Source: Variovorax sp. MHTC-1 (GTDB lineage Bacteria; Pseudomonadota; Gammaproteobacteria; Burkholderiales; Burkholderiaceae_C). Taken from it: 64,000 bases of DNA. Below, in pieces: positions 15,914 through 27,631 of the stretch. Position 1 is the first letter of the stretch, and each line of letters begins with the position of its first letter. The position numbers and the translations under genes are program-made. The notes beneath the pieces were generated by a model that made no database searches, had not been told where the DNA came from, and worked only from the letters and a program-made list of their open reading frames with translations. The stretch covers positions 62,001 through 126,000 of the forward strand of contig NZ_RWKI01000006.1 in the NCBI RefSeq assembly GCF_003984645.1. The letters are read 5' to 3'.

Positions 15914-17479
15914 TCAGAAAAGACGCACGCGCACCAGCACCTGCATCGCGATCAACCCCAATACAAAACCTATGCCACCGTAGATGATGGCCTGCAGAAG
16001 CCGGTTAGTCCGCCTTTGAGCGGCCAGCAATTCGAGCAGTTCGCGCCGGTGGTCGGCCGGCCGATTTTCCAGGAAATCGTGCAGAAGCCGAGGGAGCTGG
16101 GGCAGCAGCTTGGCATAGCGGGGCGCCTCGGCGCGCAACTGTTCCAGCAGCTTGCGCGGACCGATCTGGTCGCTCATCCACCTCTCGAGGAAGGGCCTGG
16201 CCGTGTGCCAGAGGTCGAGATCGGGATCGAGCTGGCGGCCCAGGCCCTCGATGTTGAGCAGGGTCTTCTGCAGCAGCACCAGCTGCGGCTGGATCTCGAC
16301 ATGGAAGCGGCGCGAGGTCTGAAACAAGCGCATCAGGACCATGCCGAGCGAGATTTCCTTCAGCGGCCGATCGAAGTAAGGCTCGCACACGGTGCGGATC
16401 GCCGCTTCGAGCTCATCGATGCGCGTGCCCTCCGGCACCCAGCCGCTCTCGAGGTGCAGCTCGGCCACGCGCTTGTAGTCGCGCCTGAAAAAAGCGGCGA
16501 AGTTCTGCGCCAGGTACTCCTTGTCGGACTCGGTCAGCGTGCCGATGATGCCGAAGTCCAGCGAGATGTAGCGCCCGAAAGTGGCCGGATCCAGGCTGAC
16601 CTGGATGTTGCCCGGATGCATGTCGGCATGGAAGAAGCCGTCGCGGAACACCTGCGTGAAGAAGATGGTGACGCCGTCGCGCGCCAGCTTCGGGATGTCG
16701 ACCCCGGCCGCCCGCAGGCGGTCGAGCTGAGCAATGGGCACGCCCTTCATGCGCTCCATCACGATCACTTCGGGATGGCAGAAGTCCCAGAGCATCTCGG
16801 GAATCATCACCAGTTCGAGCTTGCTCATGTTGCGCCGCAACTGGGCGGCGTTGGCCGCCTCCCGCACCAGGTCGAGCTCGTCGTGCAGGTACTTGTCGAA
16901 CTCTGCGACCACCTCCCGCGGCTTGAGCCGCTTGGCATCGGTCGACAATCCCTCCACCCAGGCGGCCATCATGGCCATGAGCTCCAGGTCCTTCTCGATC
17001 ACGCCGCGCATGCCGGGCCGCAGCACCTTCACCGCGACCTCGCGCACTACACCGCCGGAATCGCGGATGGTTGCGAAATGCACCTGCGCGATCGAGGCGC
17101 TGGCCACCGGCGTCTCGTCGAACTGCACGAAGATTTCGCCGACCGGCCGGCGAAAGGCGCGCTCGATGGTCGCGATCGCGACCTTCGAATCGAAGGGCGG
17201 CACGCGGTCCTGCAGCCAGGCCAGCTCGTCCGCGATGTCGGACGGCAGCAGGTCGCGCCGCGTCGACAGCACCTGCCCGAACTTCACGAAGATCGGCCCC
17301 AGGCTCTCCAGCGCCTCGCGCAGGCGCTGGCCGCGCGGCGCCTCGAGGTTGCGGCCGGTCGAGACGATACGCGCCACAACGCGCAGCCAGGGTTTCTGGA
17401 AGCTCGTGAGCACGAGCTCGTCGAGGCCGTAGCGCAGCGCGACCAGGACGATGACGATGCCGCGGTAGAAACGCCTCAT
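15914..17479 (-). CDS. ubiB: Ubiquinone biosynthesis protein UbiB (ABC1/ADCK atypical kinase)
   Basis: This 521-residue protein is a UbiB-type atypical kinase/ATPase needed for ubiquinone synthesis, acting at the inner membrane. The family KxGQ motif is K66-F-G-Q69 ([16 protein letters not shown]), with the Ala-rich loop SASIAQVH, the catalytic-loop equivalent FHADMHPGN, and the metal-binding DFG in SLDFGII. Two predicted membrane helices occur near the C-terminus ([10 protein letters not shown] region to MQVLVRV). Its start overlaps the ubiJ stop (ATGA), so the two are translationally coupled. Together with ubiE upstream this forms the ubiE-ubiJ-ubiB order known from E. coli, interrupted by a Tim44-like gene. 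Confidence 0.95.
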
Positions 17480-18030
17480 TCGGGGCCTGCGGGCCCGGCG
17501 GCCTTGCCGCCGCGCTCACCGACGAACTGCCGCAGCGCCGCCACCACGCGCCGGGCGCCGGTGGCGATGGTGTGCGCGGGAACGTCGCCGATCAGGCGCG
17601 CTAGGTCGTCCTCCACGTCCCAGCGCACGTGGTCGACCAGCCAGTTGACCTCGGCCGCCAGTTGCACGTCGCCCTCGATGCGTACGGGAGGCTTGTCGCC
17701 GCGGAACGCGGCCCGCGCGAGGCCGAAAGGGGACTGCTCGGTTACAGCGAGCGTGAGCTCGGAGACGGCATCCGGCGGCGCCAGGTCGAGCAGGCCGGCC
17801 GGCGTGGCCACGAACTTCATCGTGACGAAGCGCCATTCGAACTGGACCACCCGCCCCTGCTGGCGCATCAGCCGCTGCTGGGCCTCGGGTTCCTGCTGCA
17901 GCACATGGTTGAGAAAGAGCACGGCGCGGTGCTGAACCTCATGGACGACCCAATCCGGCGGCTGCAGGCGGCTGCTTGCGCGGTTGACGAAGTCGTCGAG
18001 AAAAGAAAATGGGGACGATGGTGTGACCAT
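17476..18030 (-). CDS. ubiJ: Ubiquinone biosynthesis accessory factor UbiJ (SCP2 domain)
   Basis: This 184-residue protein has an SCP2-like lipid-binding domain and lies between ubiE and ubiB as UbiJ does. UbiJ works with UbiK in the soluble complex that hydroxylates and methylates ubiquinone intermediates. Typical segments are [21 protein letters not shown] and the strand region [17 protein letters not shown]; a C-terminal amphipathic helix follows. Its ATG (18028-18030) lies within a strong hairpin (18008-18039), which could limit translation. The stop overlaps the ubiB start. A GC-rich repeat lies upstream, between this gene and the Tim44-like gene. Confidence 0.88.
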
Positions 18031-19243: not shown

Positions 19244-19975
19244 TCAGCACTTGATTCCAACATGCAGGGCAACGACGCCACCGGTCATGTTGTGATAGTC
19301 CACATGTCCGAAACCGCCCTCTTTCATGAGGGTCTTGAGCTCCTCCTGCGAGGGATGCATCCGGATCGACTCGGCCAGGTAGCGGTAGCTTGCATCGTCG
19401 CCCGCCACCACCTTGCCGAGGAGCGGCAGCACCTTGAACGAATACCAGTCGTAAACCTTGGAAAGCGGCTTGGCGACCTTGGAGAATTCGAGCACCAGCA
19501 GCTTGCCGCGCGGCTTGAGCACGCGGTTCATTTCCTTCAGCGCAAGATCCTTGTGCGTCATGTTGCGCAGACCGAAGGCGACACTCACGACATCGAAGTG
19601 ATCGTCCGGAAAGGGCAACTTCTCGGCATCGCATACCAGCGTGGGCAGCGCGACGCCGGCATCGAGGAGCCGGTCGCGGCCCGTGCGCAGCATGGCTTCG
19701 TTGATGTCGGTGTGCACCACCTCGCCGCTGGCGCCCACCTTCTTCGCGAAGGCCAGCGCGAGGTCGCCGGTGCCGCCCGCGATGTCGAGCACCTTCGAGC
19801 CCTCGCCCACGTTCGCGACCATGACCGTGTAGGACTTCCACGCGCGATGCAGGCCCGCCGACATCAGGTCGTTCATGAGGTCGTAGCGAGTCGCGACCGA
19901 GTCGAACACGCCGCGCACGCGCTGTGCCTTGTCGCTTTCCTCGACCGTCTCGAAACCGAAGTGGGTACTGCTCAT
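19244..19975 (-). CDS. ubiE: Ubiquinone/menaquinone biosynthesis C-methyltransferase UbiE
   Basis: This 243-residue SAM-dependent methyltransferase adds the C-methyl group to the benzoquinol (or demethylmenaquinol) ring. The family signature [17 protein letters not shown] is at 31-47 and SAM motif I is [12 protein letters not shown] at 62-73. The [16 protein letters not shown] segment and the C-terminal [11 protein letters not shown] are also typical. It is the first of the ubi genes in this minus-strand series. Cytoplasmic, working on a membrane substrate. About 100 bases separate it from the DUF971 gene upstream, enough for a promoter. Confidence 0.96.
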
Positions 19976-20075: not shown

Positions 20076-20489
20076 TCAGTGGCTGCCGCAGGCGTGGCCG
20101 GCCTTGTCGGCCATCGGCGCGTCGCGGTCGACGCCCGCCGCAGCCAGGCGTCGCTCGTACTCGGCCCAGAGCTCGTCCTGCTTGGCGCCCAGCTCGTACA
20201 GCAGGTCCCAAGAGAAAATGCCGGTGTCGTGGCCATCCGAGAAGCTCGGCTGCACCGCATAGTTGCCGACCGGCTGCAGGTCCAGCAGGCCGACGGTGCG
20301 CTTGCCGGTCTGCAGCACTTCCTGGCCCGGCCCGTGCCCCTGCACTTCCGCCGAAGGCGAATAGATGCGCATCAGCTCGAAGGGGATGCGGAAAGTGGCG
20401 CCGTCCGAAAAGCCGACCTCCAGCACGCGCGACTGGTTGTGCACGGTGATCGATTGCGGCGTCGGTGCGCCGGCTTGCAAACCTGCCAT
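20076..20489 (-). CDS. DUF971 family protein
   Basis: This 137-residue protein carries a DUF971 domain (about 12-105) with the signature VLEVGFSDGATFRIPFELMRIYSPSAE (read in two parts around residue 30) and NYAVQPSFSDGHDTGIFSWD. The domain also occurs fused to Fe-S scaffold proteins and to gamma-butyrobetaine hydroxylase; its own function is not established. The C-terminus is polar and ends HACGSH, a possible metal-binding tail. The start codon shares one base with the stop of the HIT gene (TGATG), so it is coupled to it. Confidence 0.85.
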   Translation of the reverse strand: MAGLQAGAPTPQSITVHNQSRVLEVGFSDGATFRIPFELMRIYSPSAEVQGHGPGQEVLQTGKRTVGLLDLQPVGNYAVQPSFSDGHDTGIFSWDLLYELGAKQDELWAEYERRLAAAGVDRDAPMADKAGHACGSH

Positions 20490-20929
20490 CAGAAACTCCT
20501 TGTCGCCAGGCGCTGGACCATCTCGCGTTCCAGTGCCGGTAGTTTGACCTCTATTCCGGCCTCGCGTTCCGGATTGCTCTTGCGCTGCACTTCGGCCCAG
20601 ACCGAGCCCGGGAATCGCGGGTCCCAGTCGAAGCGCGCGACAACGTGCCAGTGCAGATGCGGCACCATGTTGCCCAGGGCCGCGAGATTGATCTTGGCCG
20701 GCGCCAGCGCATTGCGCAGGCTTTGCTCGACCACTGTCACGGCTTCCATGCACAGCGCGCGGTCCTCGGGACTCAAGTCGGACCACTCGGCCACGTGGTC
20801 TTTCCAGACGACGCGATAGAACGCGGGAAAGCCCGCTTCCGCCGCATGGATGACGCGAAACTTCGCCGCCTCGAAGACCATGCGGCCGCCGGCGTCATCG
20901 CACAAAGGACAACCCGCGGCGGAGCTCAT
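20489..20929 (-). CDS. HIT family hydrolase
   Basis: This 146-residue protein of the histidine-triad superfamily has the nucleotide-binding triad H91-L-H93-W-H95 preceded by LGNMVPHLH. An N-terminal CPLC pair (C7, C10) suggests a zinc site. HIT proteins hydrolyse nucleotide phosphoramidates or dinucleoside polyphosphates. The start overlaps the stop of the large FAD oxidase gene (ATGA) and the stop overlaps the DUF971 start. It is thus the middle member of a tightly coupled trio. No evidence links its activity to the oxidase apart from gene order. Confidence 0.88.
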
Positions 20930-23900
20930 ACCAGCACGCGTTCGATGCCGCCCTGATTGGCAGCGGCCACGTACTCGGGCATCCAGTCGTCGCCGAGGAT
21001 CCGGTTGGCCATCTCGACCACGATGTAGTCGGCTTCGAGCAGGCCGTTGTTCAGGTCGTTGCCGTAGCGGCTCAGGCCCTGCAGGCAGCTCGGGCAGCTG
21101 GTGAGGATCTTGACGTTGGACTTGGGCGCGACCAGGCCGCCTTCGCGCAGCGCAGCCTCGCCCTTCTTCAGCTCTTCTTCCTTGCGGAATCGGACCTGCG
21201 TCGAGATGTCCGGGCGCGTCACGCCCAGCGTGCCGGATTCGCCGCAGCAGCGGTCGTTCTTGAGGACCTTGTCGCCCACCAGCGCCCTGACGGTCTTCAT
21301 CGGGTCCTGGAGCTTCATCGGGCTGTGGCAGGGGTCGTGGTAGAGATAGCCGCCGCCGGCCGCATCGCCGAGCGTGATGCCCTTCTCGAGCAGGTACTCG
21401 TGGATGTCGATGATCCGGCAGCCCGGGAAGATCTTGTCGAACTGATAGCCCTGCAGCTGGTCGTAGCAGGTGCCGCAGCTCACCACCACGGTCTTGATGT
21501 CGAGGTAGTTCAGCGTGTTGGCCACGCGGTGGAAGAGCACGCGGTTGTCGGTAATCATCTTCTCCGCCTTGTCGTACTGGCCGCTGCCGCGCTGCGGGTA
21601 GCCGCAGCACAGATAGCCGGGCGGCAGCACAGTCTGCACGCCGGCATGCCAGAGCATCGCCTGCGTGGCCAGGCCCACCTGCGAAAAGAGCCGCTCCGAG
21701 CCGCACCCCGGGAAATAGAACACGGCCTCGGTCTCGGAGGTGGTCGCCTTCGGGTTGCGGATGATCGGCACGTAGTCCGCGTCCTCGATGTCGAGCAGCG
21801 CGCGCGCGGTCTGTTTGGGAAGCCCGCCCGGCATCTTCTTGTTGATGAAGTGAATCACCTGCTCCTTGACCGGCGCCGGACCCAGCGTGGCCGGCGGGGC
21901 CGCGGTCTGTTTCTTCGCCAGGCCGCGCAGCAGGTCGTTGGCCAGACGCTGTGCCTTGAAGCCGATGTCGACCATGCCGGTGCGCATCAGCTTGATGGTC
22001 TGCGGACTGGTGGCGTTGAGGAAGAGCATCGCCGCCGCATTGCCGGGCCGGAAGGACTTCTGGCCCATCTTGCGCAGCAGGTTGCGCATGTTCATCGACA
22101 CGTCGCCGAAATCGATGTCGACCGGGCACGGCGTCGCGCACTTGTGGCACACGGTGCAGTGGTCGGCCACGTCCTCGAACTCCTCCCAGTGCTTGATGCT
22201 GACGCCGCGCCGGGTCTGTTCCTCGTACAGGAAAGCCTCGACCAGCAGCGAGGTCGCGAGGATCTTGTTGCGCGGCGAGTAGAGCAGGTTGGCGCGCGGC
22301 ACGTGCGTCGCGCACACCGGCTTGCACTTGCCGCAGCGCAGGCAGTCCTTCACGCTGTCGGCGATGGCGCCGATGTCGCTCTGCTGCATGATCAGCGACT
22401 CGTGGCCCATGAGGCCGAAGCTCGGCGTGTAGGCATTGGTCAGGTCGGCATGCAGCGGGCCGCCATCGCCGAGCACGGGACGCAGCAGCTTGCCCTTGTT
22501 GAAGCGCCCTTCCGGGTCGACCCGCTTCTTGTAGTCGGTGAAGGGCTGCAGCTCTTCGTCGGAAAGGAATTCGAGCTTGGTGATGCCGATGCCGTGCTCG
22601 CCCGAGATCACGCCGTCGAGGCTGCGCGCCAACACCATGATGCGCGCCACCGCGGCGTGCGCGGTCTGCAGCATCTCGTAGTTGTCGCTGTTGACCGGGA
22701 TGTTGGTGTGCACGTTGCCGTCGCCCGCATGCATGTGCAGCGCGACCCAGACCCGGCCCTTCAGCACGCGCTGGTGAATGGCATTGCACTCGGCCAGGAT
22801 CGGCGCGAACTCGGCGCCGCTGAAGATGGCCGCAAGCGGCGCGCGGATCTGCGTCTTCCAGCTCGCGCGCAGCGAATGGTCCTGCAGCTGCGGGAACAGC
22901 GTGTCCACCTTGTCCAGCCAGCCCCGCCAGAGCGCCCGCACCTCGCGCACCAGCGCCGCGGCTTGGGAGGCGCGGTCTTCGAGTAGCTCGGCCGACGCGA
23001 TCTCGCTGGCATCGTCGCTCTTGCCCAGCGGCAGGTTGCCCTGCGTGAAGAAGGCTTCGAGCTCGTCGGCGAGCGCGAGCTTGTTCTGAAGCGAGAGCTC
23101 GATGTTGATGCGCTCGATGCCATCGGTGTACTCGGCCATGCGCGGCAGCGGGATCACCACGTCCTCGTTGATCTTGAAGGCGTTGGTGTGCTTGCTGATG
23201 GCGGCAGTGCGCTTGCGGTCGAGCCAGAACTTCTTGCGCGCCTCGGGGCTGATCGCGATGAAGCCTTCGCCGCTGCGCGAGTTGGCGATGCGCACCACTT
23301 CGGAGGTCACACGCGCGACCGCATCGGCATCGTCGCCGGCGATGTCGCCGAACAGCACCATCTTCGGCAGGCCGCCGTGCTTCTTGGACTTGGTCGCGTA
23401 GCCGACCGCCTTGAGGTAGCGGTCGTCCAGGTGCTCCAGGCCCGCCAACAGGACCCCTGAACGCTTCTGCTCGGCGAACATGAAATCCTTGATCTCGACG
23501 ATGCTCGGGACGGCGTCCTTGGCGTTGCCGAAGAACTCCAGGCACACGGTGCGCGTGTGCGCCGGCATGCGGTGCACCACCCAGCGCGCGCTGGTGATGA
23601 GGCCGTCGCAGCCTTCCTTCTGGATGCCGGGCAGGCCCGAGAGGAACTTGTCGGTCACGTCCTTGCCGAGGCCTTCCTTGCGGAAGGTCTTGCCGGGGAT
23701 CTCGAGCCGCTCGCTGCGCAGCCGGGTCTTGCCGTCGGCCGCGAAATACTGCAGGTCGAAGACGGCACTGTCGGCGTCGTGGATCTTGCCGAGGTTGTGG
23801 CCGATGCGCGTGACTTCGAGCCACTCGGCCTCGGGGGTCACCATGCGCCAGGAGGCCAGGTTGTCAAGCGCGGTGCCCCAGAGCACCGCTTTCTTGCCGC

Positions 23901-24804
23901 CCGCGTTCATCGCGACGTTGCCGCCGACGCAGGAGGCCTCGGCCGAGGTCGGGTCGACCGCGAACACGAAGCCCGCGCGCTCGGCCGCATCGGCCACGCG
24001 CTGAGTGACCACGCCGGCTTCGGTCCAGACGGTGGGCACCGGGGCCTCGAGCCCGGGCAGCGAGACCATCTCGACCTCGGTCATGGCCTCGAGTTTTTCG
24101 GTGTTGATGACGGCGCTGTTCCAGGTCAGCGGGATCGCGCCGCCGGTGTAGCCGGTGCCGCCGCCGCGCGGAATGATCGTGAGCCCCAGCTCGGTGCAGC
24201 CCTTGACCAGCCCGGCCATCTCGGCCTCGGTGTCTGGCGTGAGCACGACGAAGGGATATTCGACCCGCCAGTCGGTTGCATCGGTCACGTGCGACACGCG
24301 CGAGAGGCCGTCGAACTTGATGTTGTCCTTGGCCGTGAGCCGGCCCAGCGTGCGCGTGGCCTTGCGCCGAAGCGCCGCGACGTCGCGAAACATCGTGTCG
24401 AAGGCCTGCACCGCCTGCGCCACCAGCGCGGTGAGCTCGCCGACCAGCGCGTCGCGCTGCGCGGCCGCATCGGGCGTGCGGCGCTTCTGCACCTCGGACA
24501 GGCGGTGGTTGAGCGCATCGACCAGCTGGCCGCGCCGGCGCGGGTTGTCCAGCAGGTCGTCGACCAGGTAGGGATTGCGCTGCACCACCCAGATGTCGCC
24601 CAGCACCTCGTAGAGCATGCGCGCCGAACGGCCAGTGCGGCGCTCGGCCCGCAGCGTCTGCAGCAGTTCCCAGCCGCGCTCGCCCAGGAGGCGGATCACG
24701 ATCTCGCGATCGGAAAAACTCGTGTAGTTGTATGGGATCTCACGCAATCGCGCGGGCTCTTCGGCCTGCGACAACAACGCCGTCAACGCGGTCGGAGCAT
24801 TCAT
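20926..24804 (-). CDS. Large FAD-linked oxidase with Fe-S and CCG domains (DUF3683 type)
   Basis: This 1292-residue fusion protein oxidises a 2-hydroxyacid, judged by its domains. Residues 1-160 form a DUF3683-like region. The FAD-binding (PCMH) domain follows, with [16 protein letters not shown] at 211-226 and [14 protein letters not shown] at 292-305, and then the FAD-oxidase C-terminal domain ending at GEHGIGITK (about 730). A ferredoxin-like part has [11 protein letters not shown] (about 820) and [12 protein letters not shown] (about 880), giving two 4Fe-4S sites. Two CCG cysteine-rich domains end the protein (CCGYPQ, about 1068; CCGESG, about 1186). It resembles a GlcD-GlcF or YdiJ fusion. 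It follows serA by 84 bases. Confidence 0.85.
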
Positions 24805-24888
24805 CGGGGATTGGCCTCGGTCGGGCGCTGCGCGCCCATGAACCAGGGGCGTGAATTTTAAGTCAGCCCTGAGCGCCCTGCCGGCAGC

Positions 24889-26118
24889 TTAGAACAGGAC
24901 CCGGCTGCGTATGGTGCCGGACACCTTCGCAAGCTTTTCGAGCGCCAGGTCGGAATACGCGGCATCGATGTCGGTCACGACGTAGCCCACCTTCTCGTTG
25001 GTCTGCAGGAACTGCGAGGCGATGTTGATCTTGTTCTCGGCGAACACGCGGTTGATATCGGACAGCACGCCCGGCACGTTGCGGTGGATGTGCAGCAGCC
25101 GATGCTTGCCCGGGTGCGCCGGCAGCGCCACTTCGGGGAAGTTGACCGAGGAGGTCGAGGTGCCGTTGTCGCTGTACTTCACCAGCTTCTCGGCCACCTC
25201 GAGGCCGATGTTGGCCTGCGCCTCCATCGTCGAGCCGCCGATGTGCGGCGTGAGGATCACGTTGTCCAGCCCGCGCAGCGGTGACTGGAACTCGTCCTTG
25301 TTGCTGCGCGGCTCGACCGGGAACACGTCGATCGCGGCGCCCAGCAGCTTCCTTTGCTTCAGTGCATCGGCCAGCGCCTCGATCTCGACCACGGTGCCGC
25401 GCGAGGCATTGATCAGGATCGCGCCGGGCTTCATGGCCGCGAGTTCGGCTGCGCCGATCATCCATTGCGTGGCCTGGGTCTCGGGGACGTGCAGCGACAC
25501 GATGTCGCTTTGCGCCAGCAGGTCGTGCAGTTCGCGCACCTGGCGCGCGTTGCCCAGCGGCAGCTTGGTGACCACGTCATAGAAGGCGACTTGCATGCCG
25601 AGCGCCTCGGCCAGCACCGACAGCTGCGCGCCGATCGAGCCATAGCCTACGATGCCCAGCGTCTTGCCGCGGATCTCGAAGGCGTTCTCGGCCGACTTGA
25701 GCCAGCCGCCGCGGTGTGCCACCGCACTCTTCTCGGGCACGCCGCGCAAGAGCAGGATGGCCTCGGCCAGCACCAGCTCAGCGACCGACCGGGTATTGGA
25801 ATAGGGGGCGTTGAACACCGCCACGCCGTGCTCGCGCGCCGCGTCCAGATCGATCTGGTTGGTGCCGATGCAGAAGGCGCCGACCGCGACCAGCTTCTGC
25901 GCGGCGGCAAACACTTCGGCCGTCAGCTGCGTGCGCGAGCGGATGCCCAGGAAGTGCACGTCGGCGATGCTGGCCTTGAGTTCGGCTTCCGGCAGCGCGC
26001 CCGCGAGCGTCTCGATACTCTTATAGCCCGCGCCCCGCAGCACCTCGACGGCCGAGGAGTGGATACCTTCGAGCAGAAGGAACTTGATCTTGCTTTTGTC
26101 GAGGGAGGTCTTGCTCAT
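24889..26118 (-). CDS. serA: D-3-phosphoglycerate dehydrogenase
   Basis: This 409-residue enzyme catalyses the first step of serine synthesis, oxidising 3-phosphoglycerate to 3-phosphohydroxypyruvate with NAD. The length equals that of E. coli SerA. The NAD-binding motif is GIVGYGSIG (155-163). The active-site residues R240 (NASRGTVVE), E269 (VFPVEPRS) and H292 (TPHIGGST) are present, and a C-terminal ACT domain (about 338-409) would bind serine for feedback control. The frame is open upstream to 26463; the start at 26118 matches the family N-terminus, although its ribosome-binding site is weak. SerA enzymes are known to reduce 2-oxoglutarate to D-2-hydroxyglutarate as a side activity. Confidence 0.95.
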   Translation of the reverse strand: MSKTSLDKSKIKFLLLEGIHSSAVEVLRGAGYKSIETLAGALPEAELKASIADVHFLGIRSRTQLTAEVFAAAQKLVAVGAFCIGTNQIDLDAAREHGVAVFNAPYSNTRSVAELVLAEAILLLRGVPEKSAVAHRGGWLKSAENAFEIRGKTLGIVGYGSIGAQLSVLAEALGMQVAFYDVVTKLPLGNARQVRELHDLLAQSDIVSLHVPETQATQWMIGAAELAAMKPGAILINASRGTVVEIEALADALKQRKLLGAAIDVFPVEPRSNKDEFQSPLRGLDNVILTPHIGGSTMEAQANIGLEVAEKLVKYSDNGTSTSSVNFPEVALPAHPGKHRLLHIHRNVPGVLSDINRVFAENKINIASQFLQTNEKVGYVVTDIDAAYSDLALEKLAKVSGTIRSRVLF

Positions 26119-26320: not shown

Positions 26321-27631
26321 ATGCGATTCAAAACGCTCGCCGTGGCATCGGCGCTTGCGGCAACCCTCTGCGCACCGGCAATGGCGCAGACCGAGATCCA
26401 GTGGTGGCATTCGATGAGCGGTCCGCTCGGCGAATGGGTCAACGACTTGACCAAGCAATACAACGAGAGCCAGAAGGACTACAAGGTAGTTGCCACTTAC
26501 AAGGGCCAGTACGATGAATCGATGACGGCCGCCATCGCCGCCTACCGCTCCGGCAATGCGCCTGACATCCTGCAGGTGTTCGAGGTGGGTACCGCGACCA
26601 TGATGGCTTCCAAGGGCGCCATCAAGCCGGTGGGCGAAGTGATGAGCGCGGGCGGGGCCAAGTTCGACCCCAGCGTGTACGTGCCCGCGGTGGCCGGCTA
26701 CTACACGGCGCCGAACGGCCAGATGCTGAGCCTCCCGTTCAACAGCTCGACCACGATCTTCTACTACAACAAGGATGCCTTCAAGGCCGCCGGCCTGGAT
26801 CCGGAAAAAGCGCCCACCACCTGGCCCGAAGTCATCGCGGCCGCCGACAAGCTCAAGGCCAGCGGCCACAAGTGCCCCTTCACGACGAGTTGGATGAGTT
26901 GGACCCAGCTGGAAAGCTTCTCGGCCTGGCACAACACCCTGTACGCGACGCAGAACAACGGCTTCGGCGGCACCAGTGCGCGTCTGGCCTTCGACTCGCC
27001 GCTGCACGTGCGCCATTTCGAGAATCTGGCCAAGATGGCCAAGGACGGCACCTTCGTCTACAAGGGACGCAACAACACGGCCGACGCCGCCTTCCCCTCC
27101 GGCGAATGCGCCATGATGACCGGCTCCTCTGGTCTGTACGCCCGCGTGGCCAAGGACGCCAAGTTCAAGTACGGCATCTCGACCCTGCCCTACTACCCCG
27201 ACGTGAAGGGCGCACCGCAGAACACGGTGATCGGCGGCGCCAGCCTGTGGGTGATGTCCGGCAAGCCGGCCGACCACTACAAGGGCGTGGCCAGCTTCTT
27301 CAACTTCCTGTCCGACACCAAGGTGCAGGCCGAGAGCCACAAGCGCACCGGCTACCTGCCCATCACCACGGCCGCCTACAAGCTGACCGACGCCTCGGGT
27401 TTCTACAAGGAGAAGCCGGGCACCGACGTGGCGGTGACGCAGATGATCCGCAAGACCACCGACAAGTCGCGCGGCGTCCGCCTGGGCAGTTTCGTGCAGA
27501 TCCGCACCATCATCGACGAGGAAACCGAGCAGATCTGGAGCGGCAAGAGGACCGCCAAGGAGGCACTCGACGCCGCCGTCAAGCGCGGCAACGAGCAACT
27601 CGAGCGCTTCCAGAAAGCAAACAAGGGCTGA
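26321..27631 (+). CDS. ugpB: sn-Glycerol-3-phosphate ABC transporter, periplasmic binding protein
   Basis: This 436-residue solute-binding protein delivers sn-glycerol-3-phosphate (and its diesters) to the UgpAE permease. It has a signal peptide cleaved near residue 22 (APAMAQ) and then [20 protein letters not shown], typical of mature UgpB. The substrate-pocket residues occur in the SMSG segment and in later stretches such as [14 protein letters not shown] and RTGYLPI. The start ATG at 26321 has AGGAG six bases upstream. It is the first gene of ugpBAECQ and is divergent from serA, with 202 bases between them that must hold both promoters. No PHO box was recognised with confidence. Confidence 0.94.

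Follow-up and report, generated by a model that had tools for sequence, protein, structure and literature searches.

A DUF3683-type oxidase encoded beside serA in Variovorax is a candidate respiratory-chain-linked 3-phosphoglycerate dehydrogenase

A 64,000-nucleotide stretch of the genome of Variovorax sp. MHTC-1 (contig NZ_RWKI01000006.1, positions 62,001 to 126,000), hereafter called the window, encodes on its minus strand a predicted type II 3-phosphoglycerate dehydrogenase, SerA, and directly after it a large oxidase of the DUF3683 type, in which a flavin adenine dinucleotide (FAD) module is fused to iron-sulphur (Fe-S) modules. We favour, with moderate confidence, the view that this oxidase is a 3-phosphoglycerate dehydrogenase coupled to the respiratory chain and independent of nicotinamide adenine dinucleotide (NAD), an activity predicted in 2018. 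SerA and the oxidase would then perform the same step, from 3-phosphoglycerate to 3-phosphohydroxypyruvate, the former with NAD-binding 2-hydroxyacid dehydrogenase domains and the latter with FAD and Fe-S modules. NAD-linked oxidation of 3-phosphoglycerate is energetically uphill, hence the shuttle through D-2-hydroxyglutarate (D2HG) that operates in Pseudomonas. The wording of PMC8651671 agrees with this.

In the proposed reaction, a hydride would pass from C2 of D-3-phosphoglycerate to the FAD of the oxidase, and the electrons would then travel through the Fe-S and CCG modules to the respiratory chain; because the chain takes the electrons, the unfavourable step would be pulled forward within one enzyme. 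SerC and SerB would complete serine. In the lineage of the window, where SerA is encoded just upstream, a single pathway would have two entries, one driven by NAD and one by electron transport, and the SerA by-product D2HG would be handled by a separate stand-alone homologue of D2HG dehydrogenase. We infer the substrate, the acceptor, the electron path, a promoter belonging to the oxidase gene and this division of labour with SerA. The oxidase is regarded as a stand-in for SerA, not as its clean-up enzyme, because of its profile in genomes devoid of SerA, the existence of separate D2HG dehydrogenases and the lineage-specific character of its adjacency to serA. New here are the profile across the order, the distinction drawn from D2HG dehydrogenases, the lineage-specific serA neighbourhood and the link to two unexplained published results.

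The prediction goes back to Price et al. (2018; PMC5764234). Mutants of Burkholderia phytofirmans in the DUF3683 oxidase gene BPHYT_RS03150 grew poorly in most defined media and were partly rescued by serine, as were serC mutants, and the corresponding gene of Herbaspirillum seropedicae, HSERO_RS19500, appeared essential. These authors found no standard serA in either species and predicted that the oxidase is a phosphoglycerate dehydrogenase, while allowing for "some other unexpected role". A complementation study of 2024 took the DUF3683 protein of Rhodoferax as the expected SerA on this ground (PMC11535334). The link to serine synthesis, also drawn in an earlier note made from the letters of the window alone, is thus shown by fitness data for B. 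phytofirmans and suggested by them for H. seropedicae. Likened by their description, the published oxidases and the window protein share one domain list (DUF3683, FAD-binding, FAD oxidase, 4Fe-4S, CCG and DUF3400), which the window protein carries in a single chain; one CCG repeat is scored by Pfam and the second is visible solely as invariant cysteines in an alignment of 53 proteins. The species studied in 2018 were reported without a standard serA, whereas the window has a type II serA 84 bp upstream of the oxidase gene.

The two genes stand where the earlier note had placed them, on the same strand and separated by 84 bases (24805-24888) up to the ATG of the oxidase. The 409-residue SerA scores 682 bits against the NCBIfam model PRK11790 (NF008759), whose cut-off is 404, with ACT_AHAS_ss at 55.5 bits, and is accordingly a predicted type II enzyme. 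The 1292-residue oxidase carries its Pfam domains above cut-offs, and its assignment as an FAD-dependent 2-hydroxyacid dehydrogenase fused to Fe-S modules was right by domains. A scan retained the best 80 of 578 oxidase-related loci, called below the 80 nearest loci, in which the oxidase reading frame recurs at 81-94% identity; open frames here are therefore more than chance. Among these 80, the nearest named relatives are Variovorax; the window's genome measures 5.9 Mb.

The distribution of the two enzymes was compared in 150 Burkholderiales genomes (in the GTDB sense) of at least 90% completeness, each searched for every family. DUF3683 was found in 113 of them, with one match each, and type II SerA in 25. 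A second SerA type of about 395 residues was spotted by way of the genomes that have no DUF3683 and occurs in 60 of the 150, never together with type II SerA. Its scores do not reach the cut-offs of the NCBIfam phosphoglycerate dehydrogenase models. It was seen at seven of the loci, its gene is no more than 700 bp from serC in 58 of the 60 genomes (serC being on another contig in the other two), and it is akin to genes of Actinomyces (58%) and Listeria (50%) annotated as phosphoglycerate dehydrogenase. Altogether, 85 genomes have a SerA of either type (57 with DUF3683, 28 without) and 65 have neither (56 with DUF3683, nine without). A type I/III SerA hidden in the latter was considered and set aside, no match to TIGR01327 reaching the cut-off in any of the 150 genomes; partial matches of about 300 residues (273-297 bits) occur in 12, and weaker ones in 22 of 28 genomes examined more loosely.

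The serC gene, found in 143 genomes, is missing from five of the nine that have neither SerA nor DUF3683 and from two of the 56 that have DUF3683 alone. SerA or DUF3683 is present in 139 of the 143 serC genomes, and DUF3683 in 54 of the 58 that possess serC and neither SerA type; there it covers the SerA step as a candidate, which is consistent with the proposed activity and is not proof of it. By family, 23 of 50 contain at least one genome with serC and DUF3683 and no SerA. The presence of SerA varies within 13 families; in all but two of them (f4 and f42), that is in 11, DUF3683 occurs in each genome that has serC and no SerA. Across the sample the association of SerA with DUF3683 is modest (Fisher p 0.008, uncorrected for kinship). 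Closer to the window, the genomes of 50 named loci among the 80 nearest, whose completeness is not stated, were searched for type II SerA only: it was found in 31 and not in 19, the latter including Hydrogenophaga flava, H. palleronii, H. pseudoflava, Ramlibacter monticola and several Limnohabitans.

The earlier note had proposed another role, that of D2HG dehydrogenase to the adjoining SerA: the oxidase would return D2HG to 2-oxoglutarate, deliver the electrons to quinone and form one recycling operon with serA. The closeness of the two genes on one strand invites such a reading, as does the biochemistry, since SerA enzymes make D2HG, which is oxidised by YdiJ, a smaller protein with FAD and Fe-S modules (PMC9504171). 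We nevertheless judge it unlikely, and D2HG is probably the wrong substrate. A recycling partner would be expected to accompany SerA, but the 113 DUF3683 genomes divide into 57 with SerA and 56 with neither type, and these 56 have therefore no recognised SerA to make D2HG. A homologue of the stand-alone D2HG dehydrogenase of the window's genome, defined by sequence only at a cut of E 1e-90 that makes all such counts lower bounds, occurs in at least 92 of the 150 genomes and in at least 26 of the 60 with the second SerA type; YdiJ is above its cut-off in nine of the 150, always as a separate gene. Such a homologue or YdiJ (three diverged YdiJ included) accompanies type II SerA in 23 of 25 genomes, 14 of 16 with DUF3683 and 9 of 9 without. 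The remaining two carry a more distant homologue divergently adjoining serA, which brings the separate candidates to 25 of 25. The idea that DUF3683 replaces the stand-alone dehydrogenase was rejected on the same figures (14 of 16 against 9 of 9), since type II SerA genomes have the latter whether or not DUF3683 is there. The window's genome is no exception: a separate D2HG dehydrogenase gene, which the earlier note had named, together with its phenotype, as evidence that would speak against recycling, has a putative representative at C50:263268-264800 (292 bits to human D2HG dehydrogenase, 431 bits to the structure 3pm9), with a second homologue on C58.

The other families do offer precedents for neighbourhoods of the kind that recycling supposes, with different partners. 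In four genomes the stand-alone homologue divergently adjoins serA; counted by locus, type II serA has such a divergent neighbour at six, in genomes with DUF3683 elsewhere. Three diverged YdiJ below the cut-off adjoin serC; at L159 (G121 C107) the order is serC, diverged ydiJ, serA, and at L160 (G040 C8) the three genes share one contig. The serC-YdiJ-serA order provides neighbourhood support for YdiJ as a D2HG-dehydrogenase partner of type II SerA. The window protein, which the earlier note had called YdiJ-like, has a general kinship with YdiJ, as the enzymes of Escherichia coli and Pantoea ananatis likewise join an FAD module to an Fe-S, GlpC-like module and are kindred 2-hydroxyacid oxidases. 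It is not YdiJ itself: it scores 43.3 bits against the equivalog model NF049975, whose cut-off is 1350, it has 1292 residues where YdiJ has 1018, and DUF3683 and DUF3400 are not described for YdiJ in the text consulted. On expression, YdiJ was recovered largely in inclusion bodies.

The fold and the active site were compared by means of an AlphaFold2 model of residues 15-830 built from 53 sequences (pLDDT 80.6, pTM 0.78). A Foldseek search with this model ranked 3pm9, the D-lactate dehydrogenases and human D2HG dehydrogenase much alike; the human enzyme (6lpn) superposes with a TM score of 0.73-0.74 by target and shares the catalytic residues. Residues were mapped from the human enzyme through the homologue in the window's genome, and their invariance was read from the 53-protein alignment. 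At the C1/C2 and metal end, human R386, H434, H441, E475 and H476 correspond to R530, H692, H699, E736 and H737 of the oxidase, all invariant (53 of 53). These residues are common to D-lactate and glycolate dehydrogenases and therefore not specific. In the human enzyme N443 binds the far carboxylate and loss of K401 abolishes activity (PMC7801405). At this far end K401 is replaced by N546, with an invariant K544 two residues before it, Y432 by H690, and N443 is matched by N701, a likeness that speaks for D2HG. The lysine, on the other hand, is what the stand-alone enzymes of human, Pseudomonas aeruginosa (PA0317) and Achromobacter denitrificans share at the K401 place and the oxidase does not (16 sequences of that family have K in 14, R in one and S in one), though six YdiJ-type proteins and the paralogue on C33 of the window's genome also have no lysine there. 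No Fe-S module was detected in the stand-alone homologues scanned, unlike the oxidase. By its residues the oxidase looks like a D-2-hydroxyacid oxidase with a polar far pocket, not of the usual D2HG type, and the pocket differs from those of the GlcD-like and D-lactate-dehydrogenase-like proteins of the window's genome.

Such a pocket would also suit a broad enzyme acting on both 3-phosphoglycerate and D2HG, as D-2-hydroxyacids with a negative group at the far end, and thereby replacing SerA where it is absent and clearing its by-product where it is present. The retention of DUF3683 in 57 SerA genomes fits this, as does the 53 of 53 invariance of N701, H690 and K544 alongside the catalytic residues. 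It is an improbable solution in our estimate: both YdiJ enzymes tested were strict for D2HG (PMC9504171), and a by-product clearer would duplicate the separate candidates already counted in every type II SerA genome. The even ranking by Foldseek is equally what one would expect of an ordinary D-2-hydroxyacid dehydrogenase for D-lactate, glycolate or a similar substrate, standing beside serA by chance and affecting serine indirectly. Besides serA, no serine gene was recognised in the neighbour clusters inspected, many of which have no annotation. That explanation would leave aside the serine-related fitness phenotype of B. phytofirmans (PMC5764234) and the profile of DUF3683 against SerA and serC, and genes of the GlcD-like and D-lactate-dehydrogenase-like classes (assigned by eye) exist separately in the window's genome; we hold it to be very unlikely.

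The adjacency to serA, on which the recycling proposal leans, is lineage-specific. Only 15 of the 80 nearest loci have serA at 300 bp or less from DUF3683, and four have it 1.6-6.9 kb away; in 56 it is absent where at least 1.5 kb upstream is visible, and in five the contig is too short. Relatives with the same flanks, the solute-binding-protein gene and DUF3683, have no serA between them. The earlier note had suggested looking for the same pair of neighbours across Burkholderiales genomes; of the 16 that carry DUF3683 together with type II SerA, that of the window alone has the two adjacent by coordinates. A serA-oxidase operon is probably not what the window shows. A conserved operon was rejected on the 15 of 80 adjacent loci and on the leader of the oxidase gene, which is kept in similar form at three loci (L016, L188 and L189) where serA does not adjoin. 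This leader combines a -10-like TAAAAT box with an inverted repeat, both found 5' of DUF3683 in the window and at L009-L024, L031, L039, L073, L188 and L189. The box stands at the right distance in 34 of 129 upstream stretches, of which 20 were aligned and 14 omitted as near-duplicates or dissimilar, including L029 and L079, both with adjoining serA; TAAAAT is invariant in the alignment because the 20 leaders were chosen for it. A scan of the leader with the sigma-70 consensus gave no promoter and a comparison with Rfam no match. A structured RNA leader was set aside: the hairpin is conserved, but its covariation score was equalled by 52 of 500 shuffles, that is, little beyond chance. Box and leader together point to a transcription start of the oxidase gene's own, short of proof, and the leader may be an operator.

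Two published puzzles may be connected with this enzyme. In Achromobacter denitrificans NBRC 15125, a serA deletion mutant grows without serine and the purified SerA is active on 2-oxoglutarate; SerA-made D2HG was not found in cells grown in LB, a further point against D2HG recycling, and the authors suppose that serine is made by some other, "unidentified pathway" (PMC8651671). Among nine genomes searched for the DhdR box, only G130 has it, once, before a gntR gene overlapping d2hgdh, in the published order; it also carries DUF3683 (70% identity) and type II SerA. Judging from one 13-bp box and this gene order, G130 appears Achromobacter-like. By analogy, the DUF3683 oxidase could explain the prototrophy of the Achromobacter mutant. 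Pathogenic Neisseria, in turn, are said to lack 3-phosphoglycerate dehydrogenase (PMC9973317, PMC13104608). The absence of type II SerA from N. gonorrhoeae is the statement of these papers, our own search bearing on the matches listed, 60 of 2730 records; the second SerA type gave no match in N. gonorrhoeae records at E 1e-60. Two records of this species, NZ_CP119140.1 and NZ_CP119142.1, encode a DUF3683 protein 60.6% identical to that of the window, with an open frame of 1297 residues in the one examined. Both records are labelled plasmids; 2.17 Mb is the size of a chromosome, and they are therefore probably mislabelled chromosomes. The DUF3683 oxidase could, to judge by these sequences, account for the apparent lack of this step in pathogenic Neisseria. 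We found no literature linking either puzzle to DUF3683.

Several observations weigh against the assignment of the oxidase as a 3-phosphoglycerate dehydrogenase. Neither of the DUF3683 genes tried complemented an E. coli serA mutant (PMC5764234), and we found no activity assay of a DUF3683 oxidase in the literature. Both SerA types and DUF3683 are absent from four serC genomes, and 57 of the 85 SerA genomes keep DUF3683 as well, so that there is no simple swap. Some of the partial TIGR01327 matches could be short NAD dehydrogenases of another kind that carry out the step in SerA-less genomes. The stand-alone D2HG dehydrogenase homologue is present in at least 40 of the 56 SerA-less DUF3683 genomes, at odds with the simple expectation that D2HG dehydrogenase goes along with SerA. 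The far pocket does not single out phosphate, and 3-phosphoglycerate and D2HG, differing there by a phosphate and a carboxylate, are not told apart by it. Finally, gonococcal serine is reported to have acquired only 1.4% 13C excess from labelled glucose; retention of DUF3683 despite so little label would suit an ordinary dehydrogenase, and the flux of synthesis may have been low because serine was supplied in the medium and taken up.

These points notwithstanding, the respiratory-chain-linked 3-phosphoglycerate dehydrogenase remains our preferred reading, and it can be widened. It is a serious possibility, which we stop short of calling probable, that Burkholderiales widely enter serine synthesis through the DUF3683 oxidase, which would be driven by the respiratory chain and be older there than the scattered NAD-linked SerA types, that this oxidase is the "unidentified pathway" of Achromobacter as well as the 3-phosphoglycerate dehydrogenase "missing" from pathogenic Neisseria, and that Variovorax and its kin run both versions. 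If so, a large bacterial group would begin serine synthesis with an enzyme unrelated to SerA and coupled straight to respiration, and the energy problem that the D2HG shuttle overcomes in Pseudomonas would have a second solution. An annotation gap would be closed in the 54 of 113 DUF3683 genomes that have serC and neither SerA type, the Achromobacter knock-out without phenotype would be explained, and the stated inability of pathogenic Neisseria to convert 3-phosphoglycerate into serine would be open to question again.

Table 1. Features of the serA-oxidase region, in window coordinates
Feature	Position	Strand	Evidence or remark
serA, type II 3-phosphoglycerate dehydrogenase (predicted)	24889..26118	-	NF008759/PRK11790; 2-Hacid_dh and 2-Hacid_dh_C above cut-offs
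DUF3683-type FAD/Fe-S oxidase, proposed respiratory-chain-linked 3-phosphoglycerate dehydrogenase	20926..24804	-	domains, fold, 150-genome profile, published fitness data for DUF3683 oxidases elsewhere
DUF3683 domain, residues 19-136	24397..24750	-	PF12447, 165 bits
FAD_binding_4 domain, residues 186-331	23812..24249	-	PF01565, 81.5 bits
FAD-oxidase_C, metal/substrate part, residues 673-773, with H692, H699, E736, H737	22486..22788	-	PF02913; invariant 53/53
Two 4Fe-4S motifs, residues 818-897 (C821-C831, C883-C893)	22114..22353	-	PF13183 (Fer4_8), 34 bits; cysteines invariant 53/53
CCG (1028-1117), second cysteine-rich stretch and DUF3400 (1245-1292)	20929..21723	-	PF02754, PF11880
TAAAAT, -10-like box of the oxidase gene	24855..24860	-	in all 20 aligned leaders, which were chosen for it
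Inverted repeat/hairpin leader (GC-rich) before the oxidase ATG	24818..24845	-	inner stem, 94% of cells paired
HIT-domain gene, directly 3' of the oxidase gene	20489..20905	-	PF01230; gene cluster in 24/54 loci
Divergent solute-binding-protein gene, marker of the serA presence/absence site in relatives	26381..27631	+	PF13416; synteny

The solute-binding-protein gene is the end of a divergent ABC transporter set upstream. Of the ubi genes that the earlier note had seen downstream on the same strand, UbiE (19244-19975) and an ABC1/UbiB-type kinase (15914-17479) were recognised by Pfam, whereas the reading frame taken for ubiJ (17476-18030) had no Pfam match; genes with HIT, GBBH-like_N and Tim44-like domains also lie between the oxidase and the kinase. 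At 12 of 54 loci DUF3683 is near a gene resembling the threonine dehydratase IlvA, as judged by eye, and HSERO_RS19510, close in number to HSERO_RS19500, is referred to in the literature as a threonine dehydratase relative. At L007 (G000 C50:659-796) a short open reading frame near the start of a contig holds only the FAD-oxidase_C end and may represent a remnant, a deletion or an assembly break.

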